From positions 1 to 64,000 of the forward strand of contig NZ_BBYA01000003.1 in the NCBI RefSeq assembly GCF_001050275.1: a stretch of DNA of 64,000 bases. The letters run 5' to 3'. Below are positions 6,516-15,584 of the stretch, one piece after another; position 1 is the stretch's first letter, and each line of letters opens with the position of its first letter. A program made the translations under genes and the position numbers. Source of the stretch: Leptolinea tardivitalis. GTDB lineage: Bacteria; Chloroflexota; Anaerolineae; Anaerolineales; Anaerolineaceae. The notes below the pieces were generated by a model. That model was not told where the DNA came from. It made no database searches and saw nothing but the letters and a program-made list of their open reading frames with translations.

Positions 6516-7154
6516 ATGTATATTGCCATCGAAGGTGTGATTGGTGTAGGAAAAACAACATTAGCCCGTTTACTGCAGCCATCGTTTAAAGCAGGTTTGC
6601 TTCTTGAAGTTTTTGAAGAGAATCCATTCCTGAGCGATTTTTACAGTGATCGGGCGCGGTATGCGTTTCAGACACAGATTTTTTTCCTGCTTAGCCGGTA
6701 CAGGCAACAAAACAACAATGTTCCCCGTCTGTTGATGGAAAATGAAAACCTGATCAGTGACTATACTTTTGAAAAAGATTCCATTTTTGCCCGGATCAAT
6801 TTACAGGGTGATGAGCTCGATATGTATCACCGCGTGCACGAAGCCCTGGCAGAAAAAGTTCCCACACCTGACCTGCTCGTCTATTTACGGGCTAATATTG
6901 ATACTATCATGCAGCGGATTGCCCTGCGCGACAGGTCATATGAACGTCAAATTGAACGAGCCTATCTTCAACAATTATCGGATGCCTATGAAGAGTTCCT
7001 TTCCCATTCATCCAGGCTGCCGTTTCCAACTCTGATAATTGATACCGATGAGATTGATTATGTACGGTCAGCCGACGAATTGAAATCCATAGATAACCGC
7101 ATCCGGCAGGCTCTTCAACTCAGTCCTTTCCAACCAACCCTGCCGATTTCTTGA
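6516..7154 (+). CDS. Deoxynucleoside kinase family protein
   Basis: This 212-residue P-loop kinase has EGVIGVGKTT (residues 6-15) and a family-typical EENPFLSDFY segment that contacts substrate. A DRSYE motif near residue 150 belongs to the lid/arginine region. Such enzymes phosphorylate deoxyribonucleosides with ATP or GTP (dAK/dGK type) for nucleotide salvage in the cytoplasm. A paralogue lies on the minus strand at 11486-12136. Many bacteria with this family carry two copies that form a heterodimer or divide substrates. Here the two copies flank the galT-galK region. Substrate specificity is not visible from sequence. Confidence 0.85.
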   Translation: MYIAIEGVIGVGKTTLARLLQPSFKAGLLLEVFEENPFLSDFYSDRARYAFQTQIFFLLSRYRQQNNNVPRLLMENENLISDYTFEKDSIFARINLQGDELDMYHRVHEALAEKVPTPDLLVYLRANIDTIMQRIALRDRSYERQIERAYLQQLSDAYEEFLSHSSRLPFPTLIIDTDEIDYVRSADELKSIDNRIRQALQLSPFQPTLPIS

Positions 7155-7200: not shown

Positions 7201-8211
7201 ATGCGGATAACAAAAGAATCAATGTTACGCCTGGCGCGCGATACTGCAGCCATCAGTGCCAATCAGGATCGCAGTATCATCTGCATCTACCTTACCGGCT
7301 CTCTTCTCACTGAAGATCCGTTTATCGGCGGTACGACAGATATTGACCTTTTCTTTGTCCATACACAGGAACAGGACAAAAAAAGAGAAATTCGGTATTT
7401 AAGTGATGATGTCAGCCTGGATATTGCTCATATCGATCAAAAACGCTTTCAGCAACCCAGGCATTTGCGGGCAGATGCCTGGCTGGGACCATTTCTCTGT
7501 GCCAAACCCAGGGTTCTTCTTGATTCGCAGCACTGGTTTGAATTCACTGAAGCCAGTGTAGCCGCCCAGTTTTACCGCCCGGAATATATACTGGAACGAG
7601 CACGTCCCCTGGCTGCCGCCGCCCGCCAGACCTGGATGGAATTTCATCTTTCCCAACCAGACGTAACTGCAAACACAATACTCCGTTATCTCAATACGAT
7701 TGAAAATGCTGGCAATGCACTGGCATTGTTATCTGGTCCGCCGCTTACAGAACGCCGGTTTTTATTGGATTTACCTGCCCGGCTTAATACATCAGGAGTG
7801 GAAACACTTATCAGTTCTTTTAACTCCTTTCTTCTTCCATCCGACATAACGGATATTGAATGGACGGAATGGATCACTCGTTGGGAATCATCATTAAGAG
7901 AAGCTGCCCGTTCTACTGACTGTCATCCCAAGTTATCGGGTGTTCGGAGAAATTATTACACCCACGCAGTCAACGCGTTATCAGATGAACACCAACCGGC
8001 AGCCGCGTGGATATTAATGCGCACCTGGTCACAGATTGCCGCTCTATTAAACGAAAAATCTTCTGAAATGGCAGCATGGAAAGAAGCCTGCGGCTTTTTC
8101 CTACAAGTCAAAGATTCCTTTGAACCGATCTGGGGGACATTGGACAGCCTGCTTGATTCAGTTGAAGAGACACTGGATATATTTGCAAAAGATAACGGTC
8201 TGGTGGAATAA
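7201..8211 (+). CDS. Nucleotidyltransferase-domain protein
   Basis: This is a 336-residue protein. Its N-terminal domain carries the DNA polymerase-beta-like nucleotidyltransferase signature: a GS pair (YLTGSLL, around residues 33-36) followed by TDIDLFFV with the two metal-binding aspartates. The C-terminal 200 residues are helical and unrecognised, as in aminoglycoside- or small-molecule-modifying members and in HEPN-linked proteins. Its substrate is unknown. It starts behind a strong GGAAGGGAAG ribosome-binding site. Its 3' end borders the DnaA-box cluster, so it may be a useful marker of that region. Transfer of AMP to a protein or small molecule is only a family-level inference. Confidence 0.7.
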   Translation: MRITKESMLRLARDTAAISANQDRSIICIYLTGSLLTEDPFIGGTTDIDLFFVHTQEQDKKREIRYLSDDVSLDIAHIDQKRFQQPRHLRADAWLGPFLCAKPRVLLDSQHWFEFTEASVAAQFYRPEYILERARPLAAAARQTWMEFHLSQPDVTANTILRYLNTIENAGNALALLSGPPLTERRFLLDLPARLNTSGVETLISSFNSFLLPSDITDIEWTEWITRWESSLREAARSTDCHPKLSGVRRNYYTHAVNALSDEHQPAAAWILMRTWSQIAALLNEKSSEMAAWKEACGFFLQVKDSFEPIWGTLDSLLDSVEETLDIFAKDNGLVE

Positions 8212-8753
8212 CTAAATAAAACTGTGGATAAATCCAAAAAATCTGTGGATAACTCGGGTTTTCTGTGGATAACTCGGGTATTTCAAACGGTTTATCTGTG
8301 GATTGAATCAGACAGACAAAGGAATTCATCCACGATAAAAATGGATTTTTTCATCATGGCAGCATAAATTAATCATATGTGGAGGAAGTCTTGTTTTTAT
8401 CCACAAGTTTGTTTTTGAACGTTAAAATTCATATATCCCGAATATGGCAAAGAAATTACCAGATACCCCCATATATCCTGTTTTATCTTCGTCATTGCAT
8501 TTTATCCACATTTCCTCATTGCCTACTAAGAATACGGAATCCATATTTATAAACCAATAAAGAATAGGTTCTTGACAGAGTCTGTTGTGGAAATTTTGCG
8601 TTAAATAAATTGGCAATAACGAGAAATCTGGCGGAATCATCTCAGTAAAATGGTATGAAATTCTGTTCATTTTTGTTTGCAAAAAAAACAAAAAAACCTA
8701 CTATTAAAGAAGTAACTATAAAAACCATATGAAAACAAAAAGAAGTTGATCTC
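8212..8753. other. oriC: Candidate replication origin (DnaA-box cluster)
   Basis: This 542-bp AT-rich gap holds five perfect DnaA boxes (TTATCCACA). Three are in reverse orientation at 8223-8231, 8244-8252 and 8264-8272, spaced 21 and 20 bp apart. Two are in forward orientation at 8397-8405 and 8502-8510. Near matches lie at 8297-8305 (TGTGGATTG) and 8326-8334 (TCATCCACG). The second and third boxes sit in an exact 20-bp tandem repeat containing CTGTGGATAACTCGGGT. The stretch 8670-8745 is extremely AT-rich, as expected for an unwinding element. No dnaA or dnaN gene is in the window, so oriC is inferred from box density alone; a DnaA-titrating or regulatory site is the alternative. Confidence 0.65.
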
Positions 8754-9794
8754 ATGATTACTTCATCTCACCGACGATTTAATCCCCTGACTCAGGATTG
8801 GGTTCTGGTATCCCCCCATCGATCCAAACGGCCATGGCTGGGACAGGTGGAAAAAAAGCCGCCTGAATTGCTGCCCGGGTATGACCCAGACTGTTATCTT
8901 TGTCCGGGCAATGAACGAGCTGGTGGTATCAGAAATGACAACTATACCGGTACGTATGTTTTCGATAATGATTTTGCCGCGTTGCTCCCTGAAGTTACCC
9001 ATCAAAAGGACAGTCAGACACATCCTTTGATGAAGGCAGAAGTGGAAACAGGGATATGCCGGGTGGTATGTTTTTCTCCCAGGCACGATCTGACCCTGCC
9101 AGAATTGGAGATATCGGCCATTCAAAATGTCATTGAAACCTGGACGCGTGAATCCGTCGATCTTGCTGCTCGGGAAGATATCGCGTATGTTCAGGTTTTT
9201 GAAAATAAGGGCGCTGTAATGGGTTGTTCAAATCCCCACCCGCACAGCCAGATTTGGTCTCAATCGCGAATTCCCAATGAACCACAAAAGGAATTGATCT
9301 CTCAACAGATGTATTTCAATGAAAACCATCGTCCGATGCTGCAAGATTATCTGACGGAAGAACAACGCTTGAAAGAACGCCTGGTGACTGAAAATGACCA
9401 TTTCATAGCACTGGTTCCATTCTGGGCCATCTGGCCATTTGAAATCCTCGTATCTGCAAAAAGTAATGCCTCCCGCCTGGAAGACTTAAATTCTTCACAG
9501 GTTGAAGCCCTGGCTGATATTTTAAAAAGGGTGACCATTCGATATGATAACCTTTTTGAAACCTCTTTTCCGTATTCCATGGGTTTTCACCAAGCTCCGG
9601 CGGATGGACAGCCCCACCCTGAATGGATTTTGCATGCCCACTTTTATCCTCCATTGTTGAGGTCAGCCACAGTAAAAAAATTCATGGTCGGGTATGAAAT
9701 GCTAGCTATGCCGCAGCGTGATATTACACCTGAAGTGGCAGCAGCCCGGCTGCGGGAACTTTCTGAAACCATCCACTATCGATCCATATCATAA
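8754..9794 (+). CDS. galT: Galactose-1-phosphate uridylyltransferase
   Basis: GalT exchanges UMP between UDP-glucose and galactose-1-phosphate. The 346-residue protein carries the active-site motif NPHPHSQIW, in which the second His of HPH is uridylylated. A CxxC (DCYLCPGN) near residue 50 fits the zinc site of the class. The C-terminal [20 protein letters not shown] segment with further His ligands is also typical. galK follows 29 bp downstream, so the two are probably one operon. The gene begins at the right edge of the DnaA-box region. Confidence 0.95.
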
Positions 9795-9823
9795 AAAGAC
9801 TATTCGATACTGCGGGGTTAACC

Positions 9824-10999
9824 ATGAATCTACAAGAGATAGTAACAGCAGAATTTGAGAAACGATTTGGTACTACTCCTGCTCATATTGCCTGTGCTCC
9901 CGGACGAGTAAATCTGTTGGGTGAACATGTGGATTACAACGATGGATTTGTGCTGCCTGCCGCGATTAATCTGGCCACTTGGATTGCCTTTACTGCTTCT
10001 GGCACGGATACCTCTACCCTGTATGCTTTTGACTTGCAGGATGAGACGGTTTTTAACCGGCAGAGTATTCTAAGTAAAACTGATATTGACGGAAAACCTC
10101 TTTCAGAATGGGCGCGATATCCGGCTGGAATGGCCTGGGCTCTTCAAGAAAAAGGATTGGCCGTAAAAGGGATGAAGGCGGTTTTTTCCTCTGATGTTCC
10201 CAGAGGTGCCAGCCTGAGTTCATCGGCTTCAGTTGAGATGACCTTTGGCACAGCCTGGAAACAGCTGGGAGGATGGTCCATTGACCCCATGCAACTGGCA
10301 TTAATAGGTCAGCGGGCAGAAAACAGGTATGTGGGAATGAACTGCGGAATCATGGATCAATTCGCTTCTGCCTGTGGGAAAAAAGACCGCCTGATGCTGT
10401 TGGATTGCCGCAGCCTGGAATATCGCACTCTTCCCCTGCCGCCAGATGTGTCTATTGTGATTGCCGATACGACCGTCAGGCGCACGCTGGTTTCCAGTGC
10501 CTACAATAAACGAAGGGAATCGTGTGAAGAAGCTGTGCGATTGCTAAAGCAAAAGATACCTTCATTGAATTCGCTCCGAGATATCAGTGTGAATGATTTT
10601 GAAACATTTGCAGACATATTGCCGGAAGAGACAGCAATGCGTGCACGGCATGTTGTCAATGAGATTGAACGGACATCGAAAGCGATTCCGTTGCTCGAAT
10701 CAGGTGATATTGTGGCGTTTGGGAAGTTGATGAATGAATGCCATGCCTCGTTGAGGGATTTGTATGGTGTTTCCGGTCCAGAATTGGACCTGATGGCCCG
10801 GCTGGCACAACCCATCAAAGGCTGTTATGGTGCCCGTCAAACCGGCGGCGGATTTGCCGGCTGTACAGTCAACCTGGTGAAGAAGGATATGACGGAAGAG
10901 TTTTCTAAAACACTGGCCAGTCAATATGAAAAGGAAACAAATCTGCATCCGGCTGTGTATATCTGTGAAGCCTCAGAAGGTGCCAGAGTTCTGATTTAA
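9824..10999 (+). CDS. galK: Galactokinase
   Basis: GalK phosphorylates galactose at C1 with ATP, feeding GalT. The 391-residue GHMP kinase shows the galactokinase signature PGRVNLLGEHVDYNDG near residue 26, the GHMP phosphate-binding loop PRGASLSSSASVEM (around residues 125-140), the catalytic-base region CGIMDQFASACG and a C-terminal QTGGGFAGC motif. Length and motif order are complete. It lies 29 bp after galT. Confidence 0.95.
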   Translation: MNLQEIVTAEFEKRFGTTPAHIACAPGRVNLLGEHVDYNDGFVLPAAINLATWIAFTASGTDTSTLYAFDLQDETVFNRQSILSKTDIDGKPLSEWARYPAGMAWALQEKGLAVKGMKAVFSSDVPRGASLSSSASVEMTFGTAWKQLGGWSIDPMQLALIGQRAENRYVGMNCGIMDQFASACGKKDRLMLLDCRSLEYRTLPLPPDVSIVIADTTVRRTLVSSAYNKRRESCEEAVRLLKQKIPSLNSLRDISVNDFETFADILPEETAMRARHVVNEIERTSKAIPLLESGDIVAFGKLMNECHASLRDLYGVSGPELDLMARLAQPIKGCYGARQTGGGFAGCTVNLVKKDMTEEFSKTLASQYEKETNLHPAVYICEASEGARVLI

Positions 11000-11206: not shown

Positions 11207-11467
11207 ATGGATGTCATCAAAGTGAAAGCTACCTCCCGCACTGCCGCCGTCGCAGGGGCGATTGCCGGGGTCATCCGCGAAAAGAAACATGCCGAAGTTC
11301 AGGCTATTGGGGCGGGTGCAGTCAACCAGGCAATAAAAGCCCTGGTTTTGGCAAAGGGATATCTGGGAGAAGAAAATATCACGATCGTCTGTATACCAGA
11401 ATTCGTTGATGTTGATATTGATGGAAAAGTTCGGACGGCCATCAAACTGGTGGTTGAGCCAAGGTAA
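11207..11467 (+). CDS. spoVS: Stage V sporulation protein S family (SpoVS)
   Basis: This small 86-residue Alba-like protein matches SpoVS closely: KVKATSRTAAVAGAIAG at the N-terminus, a central QAIGAGAVNQAIKAL helix and a C-terminal PEFVDVDIDGK. An AGGAGG ribosome-binding site sits 7 bp before the ATG. SpoVS affects septation and spore coat assembly in Bacillus, but it is also common in non-spore-formers such as Thermus and Chloroflexota, where its role is unclear; a nucleic-acid-binding function is suggested by its fold. It appears to be monocistronic and has its own promoter. Confidence 0.92.
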   Translation: MDVIKVKATSRTAAVAGAIAGVIREKKHAEVQAIGAGAVNQAIKALVLAKGYLGEENITIVCIPEFVDVDIDGKVRTAIKLVVEPR

Positions 11468-11485: not shown

Positions 11486-12136
11486 CTAAAGGGTTTCAGA
11501 GGCTGAGAAAACCACTTCGTCTTTGCCTGTCAACTTTTGTTGTACCTTTTCTGCAATTAAATCCAAATGATCCGGCCTGACGACGTAATCCAGTTCGTCG
11601 GCCGGAACTGTTAATACCGGGCACAGGGTGAATGTAGAAATCCATTCTGTGTACAGGTTATTAACCTGCGCCAGGTAGGCCGGATTGATGGTCTTTTCAT
11701 AATCTCGGTTGCGCAGGGCTATTCGTTTGGAGAGGGTTTCCACAGAGGCTCGTAAAAAAATCACGAGATCAGGCGGAGAAAGGAATTCAATAAGTGTCTG
11801 ATACAATGACCGATAGGTTTTGTAATCGCGGTCGCTTAGATAACCCTGAATATTCAGATTGCGGGCGAAAACCTCGGCATCTTCATAGATGCTGCGGTCC
11901 TGAATGACCGATCCACTGTGATGCAGAATCTTGTGATGAATCTGGAGACGGCGCGAAAGAAAGAATACCTGCGATTGGAAACTCCACCGGCTCATGTCCT
12001 GGTAAAAATCAGCCAGATATGGATTTTCAGATTCAGGTTCATAGAATGGCTGCCAGCCTAACTTTTGACATAACATTTTCACCAGTGTGGATTTGCCAAC
12101 ACCGATGTTTCCGGCTACTACAATGAACTTATCCAT
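11486..12136 (-). CDS. Deoxynucleoside kinase family protein (second copy)
   Basis: This 216-residue P-loop kinase has VAGNIGVGKST near the N-terminus, an EPESENPYLADFYQDM substrate segment and RNRDYEKTI in the lid region, all of the dNK/dGK type. The frame extends upstream to 12319, but that extension runs over a terminator and the ferredoxin gene and has no family similarity. The ATG at 12136, preceded by AAGGAT, is therefore taken as the start. It is paralogous to the gene at 6516. The pair probably supports purine deoxynucleoside salvage. Confidence 0.85.
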   Translation of the reverse strand: MDKFIVVAGNIGVGKSTLVKMLCQKLGWQPFYEPESENPYLADFYQDMSRWSFQSQVFFLSRRLQIHHKILHHSGSVIQDRSIYEDAEVFARNLNIQGYLSDRDYKTYRSLYQTLIEFLSPPDLVIFLRASVETLSKRIALRNRDYEKTINPAYLAQVNNLYTEWISTFTLCPVLTVPADELDYVVRPDHLDLIAEKVQQKLTGKDEVVFSASETL

Positions 12137-12203
12137 GAACGAGCATCCTTGATGATTTGTTAAAGAATTAACCGAATTATACCTATGGGTCTGAACTGCC
12201 GGT

Positions 12204-12236
12204 AAAAAACAAAAGGCAGCCAAACGGCTGCCTTTT
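12204..12236 (-). terminator. Intrinsic terminator of the ferredoxin gene
   Basis: An 11-bp perfect stem (AAAAGGCAGCC with its complement, loop AAAC) spans 12211-12236. On the minus strand it is followed by a run of six T (GTTTTTTACC), a classic intrinsic terminator just past the ferredoxin stop. Confidence 0.8.
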
Positions 12237-12258
12237 GTTTGGATTTTAGAAAAACATC

Positions 12259-12432
12259 CTATGCGGGATGGATGGCATCGCTCGGGCAGACATCTGCACA
12301 GGCGCCGCAATCGACGCATTTGGCTTCGTCGATGGTCATTTTGCCATCGATTTCAGAAATTGCGCTTTCCGGGCATTCGCTTTCGCAAGCGCCGCAATTG
12401 ATGCAGTCATCGGTATTGATTTTATGGGCCAT
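12259..12432 (-). CDS. 2[4Fe-4S] ferredoxin
   Basis: This 57-residue clostridial-type ferredoxin has two complete CxxCxxCxxxCP motifs (CINCGACESECP and CVDCGACADVCP), each ligating a [4Fe-4S] cluster. It is a cytoplasmic, low-potential one-electron carrier, in keeping with an anaerobic host. The ATG at 12432 is preceded by AGGAAGG. An in-frame extension to 12465 lacks such a site. It is followed by its own terminator. Confidence 0.93.
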   Translation of the reverse strand: MAHKINTDDCINCGACESECPESAISEIDGKMTIDEAKCVDCGACADVCPSDAIHPA

Positions 12433-13624: not shown

Positions 13625-15584
13625 GAAATCCATAGACAGTCTGCACTTCTCCCCCTGGATGGCTCCTTTAGGCCTTCTGGTGGTCTGTCTGGCTGCCTAC
13701 GGTCTGTTATTTCCCTTCCTTGGCTGGTACTGGGACGAGTGGCCGATTACCTGGATCGCCTACAAACTGGGTCCGGATGGATTGGCGCATTATTTTGAAA
13801 CCAACCGCCCCTACTGGGGCTTGATTTACCGTTTCACCACAACTATTCTGGGGGCTGTGCCGTGGTACTGGCAGCTCTTCGGCCTGTTCTGGCGCTGGCT
13901 GGGGGCGGTGCTGGTGTGGGAGATCGTCCGCACCACCTGGAAGCGCTGTGAATTCATGGCGCTTGCGGCCGGTCTATCCTTTGCCCTGTGGCCTTCGTTC
14001 ACCCAGCAGTCCATTGCCATGATGTACGGACACTTCTTTATCGTGTTCGACTGTTTCCTGGCATCCCTGTGGTTCAACCTGAAAGCGTTGGACAACCCCC
14101 GCAAGGCTGTTTGGTGGCTTCAGGCCGCACTCCCGCCGGCAGCACTCAACCTGATGGCCATGGAGTATTTTTTCCTTTTGGAACTCCTGAGGCCGCTTTT
14201 CCTGTTTGCCGCTGTTGAAGGGGAAATATCGGTAAAAAACCGCCTCAAAAAGACGGCTCTCTACTGGCTGCCCAACCTGCTTGTGTTTGGCGCGGTGGGA
14301 TACTGGCGGGCGTTCCTTTTCCCGCATCAGACGCATAATTATCAACCCGTGTTGATGGCTGAAATCAAGTCTACACCCCTGCAGGCATTGCTAAACCTTT
14401 TATCCACCGTGGTGAAAGACCTGTGGACGGTGCTGGGTGCCGCCTGGGGACAGGTTTGGCGCCTGCCGGATTCCTCCCTGTTCAGCCTGCGGACGAGTCT
14501 GGTCTACTGGGCTGGACTGGTACTGCTGGCTGTACTGGTTGGCCTGCTGGCCGGACTGGCTGGCCGGAAGGCAGGCAGATCAGAAAAGAAACGCTGGAGT
14601 TTCCTGTGGATTGCCCTGGCCGGATTGCTGGTGGCTGGCATTCCCTTCTGGGTGACCGGCCTTCCCATAGGTCTGGGTTTCCCGAATGACCGCTTCACCC
14701 TACCGTTCCTCCTGGGGGCGGCGATTCTGCTGGCCGGTCTGTTGGACCGGCTGCCCGGCAAATTTGGTCTGCGCGCCGGATTGACTGCTCTGCTGGTGGC
14801 GGCGGCTGTGGGTCTGCAGGTGCAGACCGGCTTGGCCTACCGCAAAGACTGGAACACTCAGCGCAATCTTTTTTGGCAGTTGAACTGGCGCGCCCCGGCG
14901 CTGCAGCCGGGAACGGCTGTGGTGAGCAGCAATCTGCCGCTGCGGTATTTCAGCGATAATTCCCTGGTCGCCCCGCTCAACTGGATTTACGCGCCCGATA
15001 ACCATACGACCAGCATGGATTACATGTTTTATTACGCTTCGGTGCGCAAAGACCGCGCCCTGAAACTGGAACCGGGTCAGGATATTTACCAGGGATTTCT
15101 AGCGGCAGACTTCAAAGGCAGCAGCGACCGGTTGGTGATGATCGATTTCCAACCGCCCGCCTGCCTGCGCGTGCTGGACAAGGACTTTGACCCGGTCAAT
15201 CCACTGCTGCCTCCGTTGATGCGCGAAGCGGCGAAAAGCAGCAATCCCGGCGTGATCGTGCCAGAGACAAACAGCGCCTTCCAGCCGCACCAACCGGATG
15301 CGGTTGTGTTTGGCCAGGAACCGGCGCACGGCTGGTGTTATTACTTTGAAAAAGCCAGTCTGCTGGCACAGCAGGGCGCCTGGCAGGCGGCTGCCGACCT
15401 GGGCGATGAGGCTTTTGCCCTGGGGGACTATCCCAACGACCCGATAGAACGGTTTGTGTTCATTGAAGCTTATGCCCGTTCCGGTAAAATGGACCGGGCC
15501 CGGGAGTTAAGCGAGGAGACATTGAAGATCACGCCGCTGGTCAAGGCGCCGCTGGATAAGCTGTGGGAACGCATTGGGAAATAG
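13596..15584 (+). CDS. Multi-pass membrane protein, probable GT-C glycosyltransferase
   Basis: This 662-residue protein has about ten hydrophobic segments in residues 15-430 and a soluble C-terminal part ending in helical TPR-like repeats (YFEKASLLAQQGAW and later). An acidic pair in YWDEWP in the first outer loop (residues 44-49) recalls the catalytic Asp/Glu of GT-C enzymes. Translational overlap with the GtrB-like gene suggests it transfers the lipid-linked sugar to an extracytoplasmic acceptor. The longer in-frame start at 13521 lies well inside the upstream gene, so ATG 13596 is preferred. The acceptor is unknown. Confidence 0.7.
   Translation: MTIKVPPRIKKSIDSLHFSPWMAPLGLLVVCLAAYGLLFPFLGWYWDEWPITWIAYKLGPDGLAHYFETNRPYWGLIYRFTTTILGAVPWYWQLFGLFWRWLGAVLVWEIVRTTWKRCEFMALAAGLSFALWPSFTQQSIAMMYGHFFIVFDCFLASLWFNLKALDNPRKAVWWLQAALPPAALNLMAMEYFFLLELLRPLFLFAAVEGEISVKNRLKKTALYWLPNLLVFGAVGYWRAFLFPHQTHNYQPVLMAEIKSTPLQALLNLLSTVVKDLWTVLGAAWGQVWRLPDSSLFSLRTSLVYWAGLVLLAVLVGLLAGLAGRKAGRSEKKRWSFLWIALAGLLVAGIPFWVTGLPIGLGFPNDRFTLPFLLGAAILLAGLLDRLPGKFGLRAGLTALLVAAAVGLQVQTGLAYRKDWNTQRNLFWQLNWRAPALQPGTAVVSSNLPLRYFSDNSLVAPLNWIYAPDNHTTSMDYMFYYASVRKDRALKLEPGQDIYQGFLAADFKGSSDRLVMIDFQPPACLRVLDKDFDPVNPLLPPLMREAAKSSNPGVIVPETNSAFQPHQPDAVVFGQEPAHGWCYYFEKASLLAQQGAWQAAADLGDEAFALGDYPNDPIERFVFIEAYARSGKMDRARELSEETLKITPLVKAPLDKLWERIGK

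Follow-up and report, generated by a model that had tools for sequence, protein, structure and literature searches.

The question raised by the intergenic stretch at 8212-8753 of the window, by which we mean the whole 64,000-nucleotide stretch of DNA that was analysed (C3:1-64000 of a 15-contig Leptolinea assembly, G000), is whether a cluster of DnaA boxes that lies next to galactose genes and away from dnaA represents the chromosomal origin. The original prediction had described five perfect boxes in about 300 bp, three of them in the same orientation and 20-21 bp apart and two in the opposite orientation, as well as an AT-rich right end. All of this was recovered in a box scan: the five perfect TTATCCACA boxes fall within 288 bp, at 8223, 8244 and 8264 on the reverse strand and at 8397 and 8502 on the forward strand, and the A+T content amounts to 76-78% at 8651-8750. 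The predicted neighbours were also found as described, with the stop codon of the nucleotidyltransferase-like reading frame at 8211 and the start of galT at 8754, which leaves the box-bearing stretch intergenic. The features of the locus are the following:

6516-7154, forward strand: deoxynucleoside kinase gene (PF01712), the conserved left neighbour, assigned by the PF01712 match and the locus comparison
7201-8211, forward strand: nucleotidyltransferase-like gene, a conserved origin neighbour in many family members, named by eye on basis of a GS/DID signature
8223-8272, reverse strand: three tandem DnaA boxes with starts 21 and 20 bp apart, the likely DnaA-loading array
8397-8405, forward strand: convergent DnaA box, a perfect box; convergent boxes recur in many relatives
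8435-8450: degenerate NrdR-box-like palindrome, the left member of a pair, very weak alone (matrix score -0.9)
8466-8481: degenerate NrdR-box-like palindrome CCCCCATATATCCTGT, with four mismatches to the family consensus
8502-8528, forward strand: candidate unwinding module, composed of DnaA box 8502-8510, a 12-bp spacer and the DnaA-trio-like CTACTA at 8523-8528
8529-8753: AT-rich stretch (64-78% A+T), a candidate DNA unwinding element by its position
8754-10999, forward strand: galT and galK, between oriC and spoVS in Leptolinea
11207-11467, forward strand: spoVS (PF04232), right neighbour, found in 25 of the 48 loci that have the nucleotidyltransferase gene
11486-12319, reverse strand: second deoxynucleoside kinase gene (PF01712), right neighbour

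The cluster of high-affinity DnaA boxes that is characteristic of a bacterial oriC is thus present in the window, and it stands out clearly from the background. The 64-kb window contains seven perfect TTATCCACA boxes, whereas shuffled sequences have 0.53 on average and never more than 3, and the complete 3.69-Mb genome contains 74. On basis of the latter number around 2e-7 clusters of five boxes in 300 bp are expected per genome (Poisson). Among the listed perfect boxes of the genome there was no second site with three boxes inside 1 kb, and a search of the window and 17 loci for three TTWTNCACA boxes within 600 bp turned up no further cluster. DNA folding of 8212-8753 was uninformative (z -1.29).

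The arrangement is shared by a large part of the family. The family was represented by 147 genomes from 40 genera, and a box pair with 11-12 bp in between was present in 94 of the genomes and 31 of the genera, while the reversed-pattern control gave 0, and the tandem-pair pattern, counted by pattern alone, had matches in 112 of 297 genomes drawn from the class. In total 64 loci were compared, all of which, except the window, were chosen through the tandem-box pattern. The nucleotidyltransferase gene was matched in 48 of these (46 genomes without L023 and the duplicate L039), and the array was located past its 3' end in 47 of the 48; in G006 (L023) it is found beyond dNK1 and not directly 3' of the nucleotidyltransferase gene. 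The 16 loci without this gene in the stretch include those of genus g10 and added second sites. An independent scan, based on the alignment of the nucleotidyltransferase and not on the boxes, covered the best 80 of 169 loci, of which 78 were usable; at least two perfect boxes were found downstream of the gene in 58 of the 78 and a tandem array, allowing few variants, in 55. Convergent boxes occur around 160 to 450 bp beyond the gene in many relatives. The conserved position that is typical of a bacterial oriC was therefore found in relatives, though not in every genus, as the g10 loci lack the neighbour gene. Neither Pfam nor NCBIfam gave a match (E 0.001) for the protein encoded at 7201-8211, and its GS/DID signature is invariant.

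In the longer stretches the usual order is deoxynucleoside kinase, nucleotidyltransferase, boxes, spoVS and second deoxynucleoside kinase. Many of the loci in which spoVS was not found are only 3 kb long; it was absent within 20 kb in L080, L086, L091 and L096. galT lies between the boxes and spoVS only in four Leptolinea genomes and was not seen there in the other spoVS-bearing loci, and the gal genes are for that reason probably not the ancestral context of the origin. When relatives were examined for the box cluster next to galT, as had been suggested as a check, the cluster was found to recur at the same place, with galT beside it in these four genomes only.

Some relatives have additional arrays. 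The neighbours of second tandem-box sites in G005 and G026 looked unrelated by eye. In Ornatilinea apprima (G101) seven DnaA boxes form a second array next to holA/DUF6391-like genes (L088 9230-9848); it lies around 24 kb from the main origin and has an NrdR-type palindrome of its own at 9600. In G142 and G140 (L093 and L094, respectively) a second array is found just beyond the second deoxynucleoside kinase gene, around 2 kb from the first, which possibly makes these bipartite origins, and G111 (L090) possesses, besides the array at the nucleotidyltransferase gene, triple arrays at 9131-9172 and 14600-14641, around 5.5 kb apart.

GC skew was sampled in 20-kb stretches in Pelolinea submarina MO-CFX1 (G107, NZ_AP018437.1), G027 and Leptolinea HRD-7 (G066, AP024710.1). 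In Pelolinea submarina (array at 326645, dnaA at 1457) and G027 (array at 2120894, dnaA at 2441237) the skew is negative to the left and positive to the right of the array and switches back around half a genome away, with one Pelolinea sample (1496001) out of line. In Leptolinea HRD-7 (array at 1036303, dnaA at 704416) the fit is coarser, with a switch between 0.9 and 1.3 Mb and thus within around 0.3 Mb of the array. The distance between dnaA and the array is 320-332 kb in all three. When the skew of 15 oriented loci was pooled, the cumulative minimum fell in the 0.5-kb bin before the array, as it did with 12 loci, and the left skew was lower than the right in 15 of 15. Near oriC the skew is weak in Leptolinea, with a positive left side in L079 and L083 (both Leptolinea); the other exceptions are a positive left side in L091 and a negative right side in L089. 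Within the genome of the window, which could be followed by contig only (15 unordered contigs), 27 of 29 bins of C3 were positive from 10 kb on. The skew switch of a bacterial origin is therefore found in relatives and is weak in Leptolinea itself. The skew comparison that had been put forward as a check came out in favour of the cluster: in relatives the switch falls there and not beside dnaA.

The genome of the window has a single dnaA match, on contig C10, flanked by what appear by eye to be an amine-oxidase-like gene and argG-argH; the locus contains no adjoining dnaN and no box cluster. An origin beside dnaA was considered and rejected, as the 20 kb around dnaA (L010) contain 0 perfect boxes and four with one mismatch, and the skew switch of the relatives lies elsewhere. 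The original prediction had placed the origin away from both dnaA and dnaN, and this was correct for dnaA only: in Leptolinea HRD-7 dnaN lies around 12 kb from the array, and in the genome of the window a dnaN gene is found on contig C7, which corresponds by synteny to the part of HRD-7 immediately left of the start of C3. There are two dnaN-like matches in the genome of the window (G000:C10:212382 and C7:14591), and several relatives also have more than one.

The cluster at the same place in relatives and the skew switch at the cluster support the predicted origin, and judged by sequence 8212-8753 is almost certainly the oriC of Leptolinea, of a type that is common to much of the family. The arrays, the skew switch and the conserved neighbourhood are direct observations, from which DnaA assembly and opening can be predicted. 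DnaA would bind to the phased triplet (8223-8272) as well as to the two convergent boxes (8397 and 8502), and from box 8502 it would probably be handed onto the DnaA-trio-like single-strand sites, which the original prediction did not mention. The duplex would then open rightward into the AT-rich DNA, within 8502-8753, and bidirectional forks would depart from the origin. Of 83 origin loci, 43 have a DnaA box (at most one mismatch) followed within 45 bp by a trio-like motif (CTACTA, CTATTA, CTACTT or TTACTA); with the reversed motifs as a control the number is 7. The window has two clear DnaA-trios only, 12 bp past box 8502, and some relatives have longer runs. In a basal unwinding system the spacer measures 16 bp or less; according to the accessible text of PMC8287927, the spacer distribution peaks at 10-13 bp and at least three DnaA-trios are required.

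When the DnaA-box arrays of 43 loci were lined up, a palindrome, CCCCCATATATGGGGG, emerged that was absent from the original prediction. Among the matches listed for the genome of the window, the sole perfect copy lies upstream of nrdR and the class II reductase gene downstream of it; the NrdR protein matches TIGR00244 (over cut-off), PF22811 and PF03477, and the reductase NrdJ_Z. NrdR had one match in each of 30 genomes, and within 300 bp upstream of nrdR the palindrome was found in 23 of the 30 at up to two mismatches and in 28 at up to three. It was also present in the first 500 bp of 8 of 16 dnaA loci at up to two mismatches and of 10 at up to three; the dnaA loci of G007, G034, G051 and G064 had been found via the palindrome itself and were left out of the 16. 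The background, in 1.2 Mb sampled from three genomes, was 0 at up to two mismatches and 3 at up to three. At oriC the palindrome was recovered in 17 of 46 genomes (12 of 22 genera) at up to two mismatches and in 23 (15 genera) at up to three, with 0.0 and 0.03 in shuffled sequences, respectively. Of the 17 genomes with a site of at most two mismatches, 16 have one that begins 84-97 bp from the first DnaA box; the offsets are 85-86 or 95-97 bp, around one helical turn apart. In 54 loci new to the analysis, 14 had the palindrome at up to two mismatches and 21 at up to three, and 14 of the 26 sites that could be placed against the tandem array sit at 85 or 94-97 bp.

In nrdR promoters the preferred position of a partner palindrome is 31 bp upstream (24 loci, z 13.3); in oriC it is +30 (29 loci, z 8.1), and in front of dnaA it is +32 (z 6.7) or -39 to -41 (z 6.3). 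Each of these positions scored highest among many offsets, and since the loci are related, the z and p values throughout are optimistic. The pair spacing is clear at nrdR promoters and enriched but weak at oriC, where the partner box of many palindromes is weak. The distribution is not uniform: 13 of 14 genomes of genus g5 lack an oriC palindrome even at four mismatches and the 14th has a four-mismatch site only, although in the three g5 genomes examined it is present upstream of dnaA and nrdR, and no good site (best five mismatches) was found upstream of dnaA in Pelolinea and Ornatilinea. In accessible parts of the literature, NrdR boxes are placed around 31-32 bp apart (PMC2892513), NrdR is described as binding box pairs with spacers of 14-17 or 24-27 bp and not a single box (PMC12051234), and one single-box promoter, that of topA, is reported to be under NrdR control (PMC4409342). 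Judged by their sequence and placement, the palindromes are very probably NrdR sites. In the literature searched we found no paper that places NrdR at oriC or in the region upstream of dnaA; the 2005 survey by Rodionov and Gelfand, reportedly the first of NrdR boxes, may name further targets. Away from nrdR, dnaA and oriC, palindromes were looked at in 12 hand-picked places plus L182 and L184. One with a single mismatch precedes, at a distance of around 190 bp, the gene of a 306-aa tyrosine recombinase (L358 3246, G025), the one in L184 lies by a phage integrase, and two with two mismatches are located inside reading frames in the genome of the window. Upstream of dnaA in Leptolinea HRD-7 a perfect DnaA box abuts the palindrome (L055, around 55-80).

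NrdR-type boxes thus lie between the DnaA boxes in many relatives, and the window has a degenerate form. The starts of its best pair (8435-8450 and 8466-8481) are 31 bp apart, and the left member is very weak. With a matrix built only from nrdR promoters of other genera, pairs that score as high were found in 4 of 909 background windows taken from the Leptolinea assembly itself and in 0 of 117 AT-rich windows, and three other Leptolinea genomes have higher-scoring pairs in this interval, one with a 41-bp spacing. The element is therefore probably present but worn in the species of the window.

Other explanations can be given for the array and for the palindromes. If the array were a datA-like DnaA-titration site, with the true origin elsewhere, it should be a box cluster without an origin signature, and the extra tandem boxes or arrays elsewhere in some relatives would be in line with such a role. 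The skew switch falls at the array in relatives, however, and this is not explained by a pure titration site, the alternative offered in the original prediction; considering also the conservation of array and neighbours, the trio-like DNA and the lack of an array near dnaA, we regard this explanation as extremely unlikely. That the oriC palindromes are intrinsic terminators of the nucleotidyltransferase operon is suggested by the extended GC stems of several of them and a T run after two (L045 and L172). As a general property this was rejected, since only 2 of 20 sites have a T-rich 3' side (at least five T in the next 8 nt), and the same 16-mer occurs, with a partner 31 bp away, upstream of nrdR, making a terminator function very improbable.

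More weight should be given to the possibility that the array is oriC and the palindromes are merely operators of a promoter directed towards spoVS (galT in Leptolinea), without effect on initiation. In many relatives they occupy an intergenic position in front of spoVS, and NrdR is known as a transcription repressor (accessible text of PMC12176259). Yet their offset is nearly fixed to the DnaA boxes and variable to spoVS, the second array of Ornatilinea apprima next to holA also has the palindrome, and in G006 boxes and palindromes together lie on the other side of dNK1. Moreover, among the 54 further loci the palindrome (up to three mismatches) was present in 21 of the 38 with a DnaA box and in 0 of the 16 without, although p is optimistic for these related loci. 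An exclusive operator function is a serious possibility that we nevertheless consider doubtful.

We consider it likely that the locus is an origin furnished with NrdR-type boxes, through which NrdR, by inference, would control initiation. The shared palindrome is observed; the role of NrdR is deduced from it. In this model dATP-loaded NrdR would occupy oriC and restrain DnaA assembly, tying initiation to the dNTP/ATP state, and it would probably also sit upstream of nrdR-nrdJ and of dnaA. Taken separately, control of initiation at oriC by NrdR is a tentative proposal, with chances slightly short of even. The same degree of reserve applies to the wider notion that the dATP/ATP-sensing NrdR of the Anaerolineae binds oriC and the region upstream of dnaA, and might so act as one sensor for dNTP synthesis, initiator supply and origin opening. 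The likely NrdR sites at the origin of many relatives do suggest that replication initiation may be gated by the supply of nucleotides. In Caulobacter, a high dNTP level in cells that are not replicating delays S phase entry, according to the accessible text of PMC12186491; such a delay would fit NrdR at oriC, though it concerns another organism.

In the literature searched no paper was found on the origins of Chloroflexi or Anaerolineae, or on Leptolinea genomes. The present analysis places the origin of a little-studied family of anaerobes at a conserved position remote from dnaA. In Pelolinea submarina, for instance, the sequence record begins next to dnaA, around 325 kb from the likely origin. 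If NrdR does act at oriC, dNTP status and initiation would be connected directly at the molecular level.

Among the known systems, the usual NrdR box has an ATATAT core, the oriC of Bacillus subtilis adjoins dnaA, and that of Escherichia coli has phased DnaA boxes, as found here, together with IHF and Fis sites. The NrdR regulon, as far as described in the accessible parts of PMC12176259, PMC12051234, PMC4409342 and PMC2892513, shares with the family the 16-bp palindrome upstream of nrdR-nrdJ with a partner around 31 bp away; in contrast, the arms of the family palindrome are C/G-rich, and it also occurs upstream of dnaA and inside oriC, places that those parts do not describe. The Escherichia coli oriC is, like the one here, separated from dnaA (accessible text of PMC8287927), whereas the neighbours are different here and NrdR-type sites are present. 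The Bacillus subtilis type, described in the same text, resembles the locus in its clustered 9-mer DnaA boxes and AT-rich flank, and its basal unwinding system in the succession of DnaA box, 12-bp spacer and DnaA-trio-like DNA. Unlike that type, the locus has only two clear trios and is not beside dnaA; its oriC belongs to a dNK-nucleotidyltransferase-oriC-spoVS-dNK neighbourhood, with NrdR-type palindromes between the boxes.
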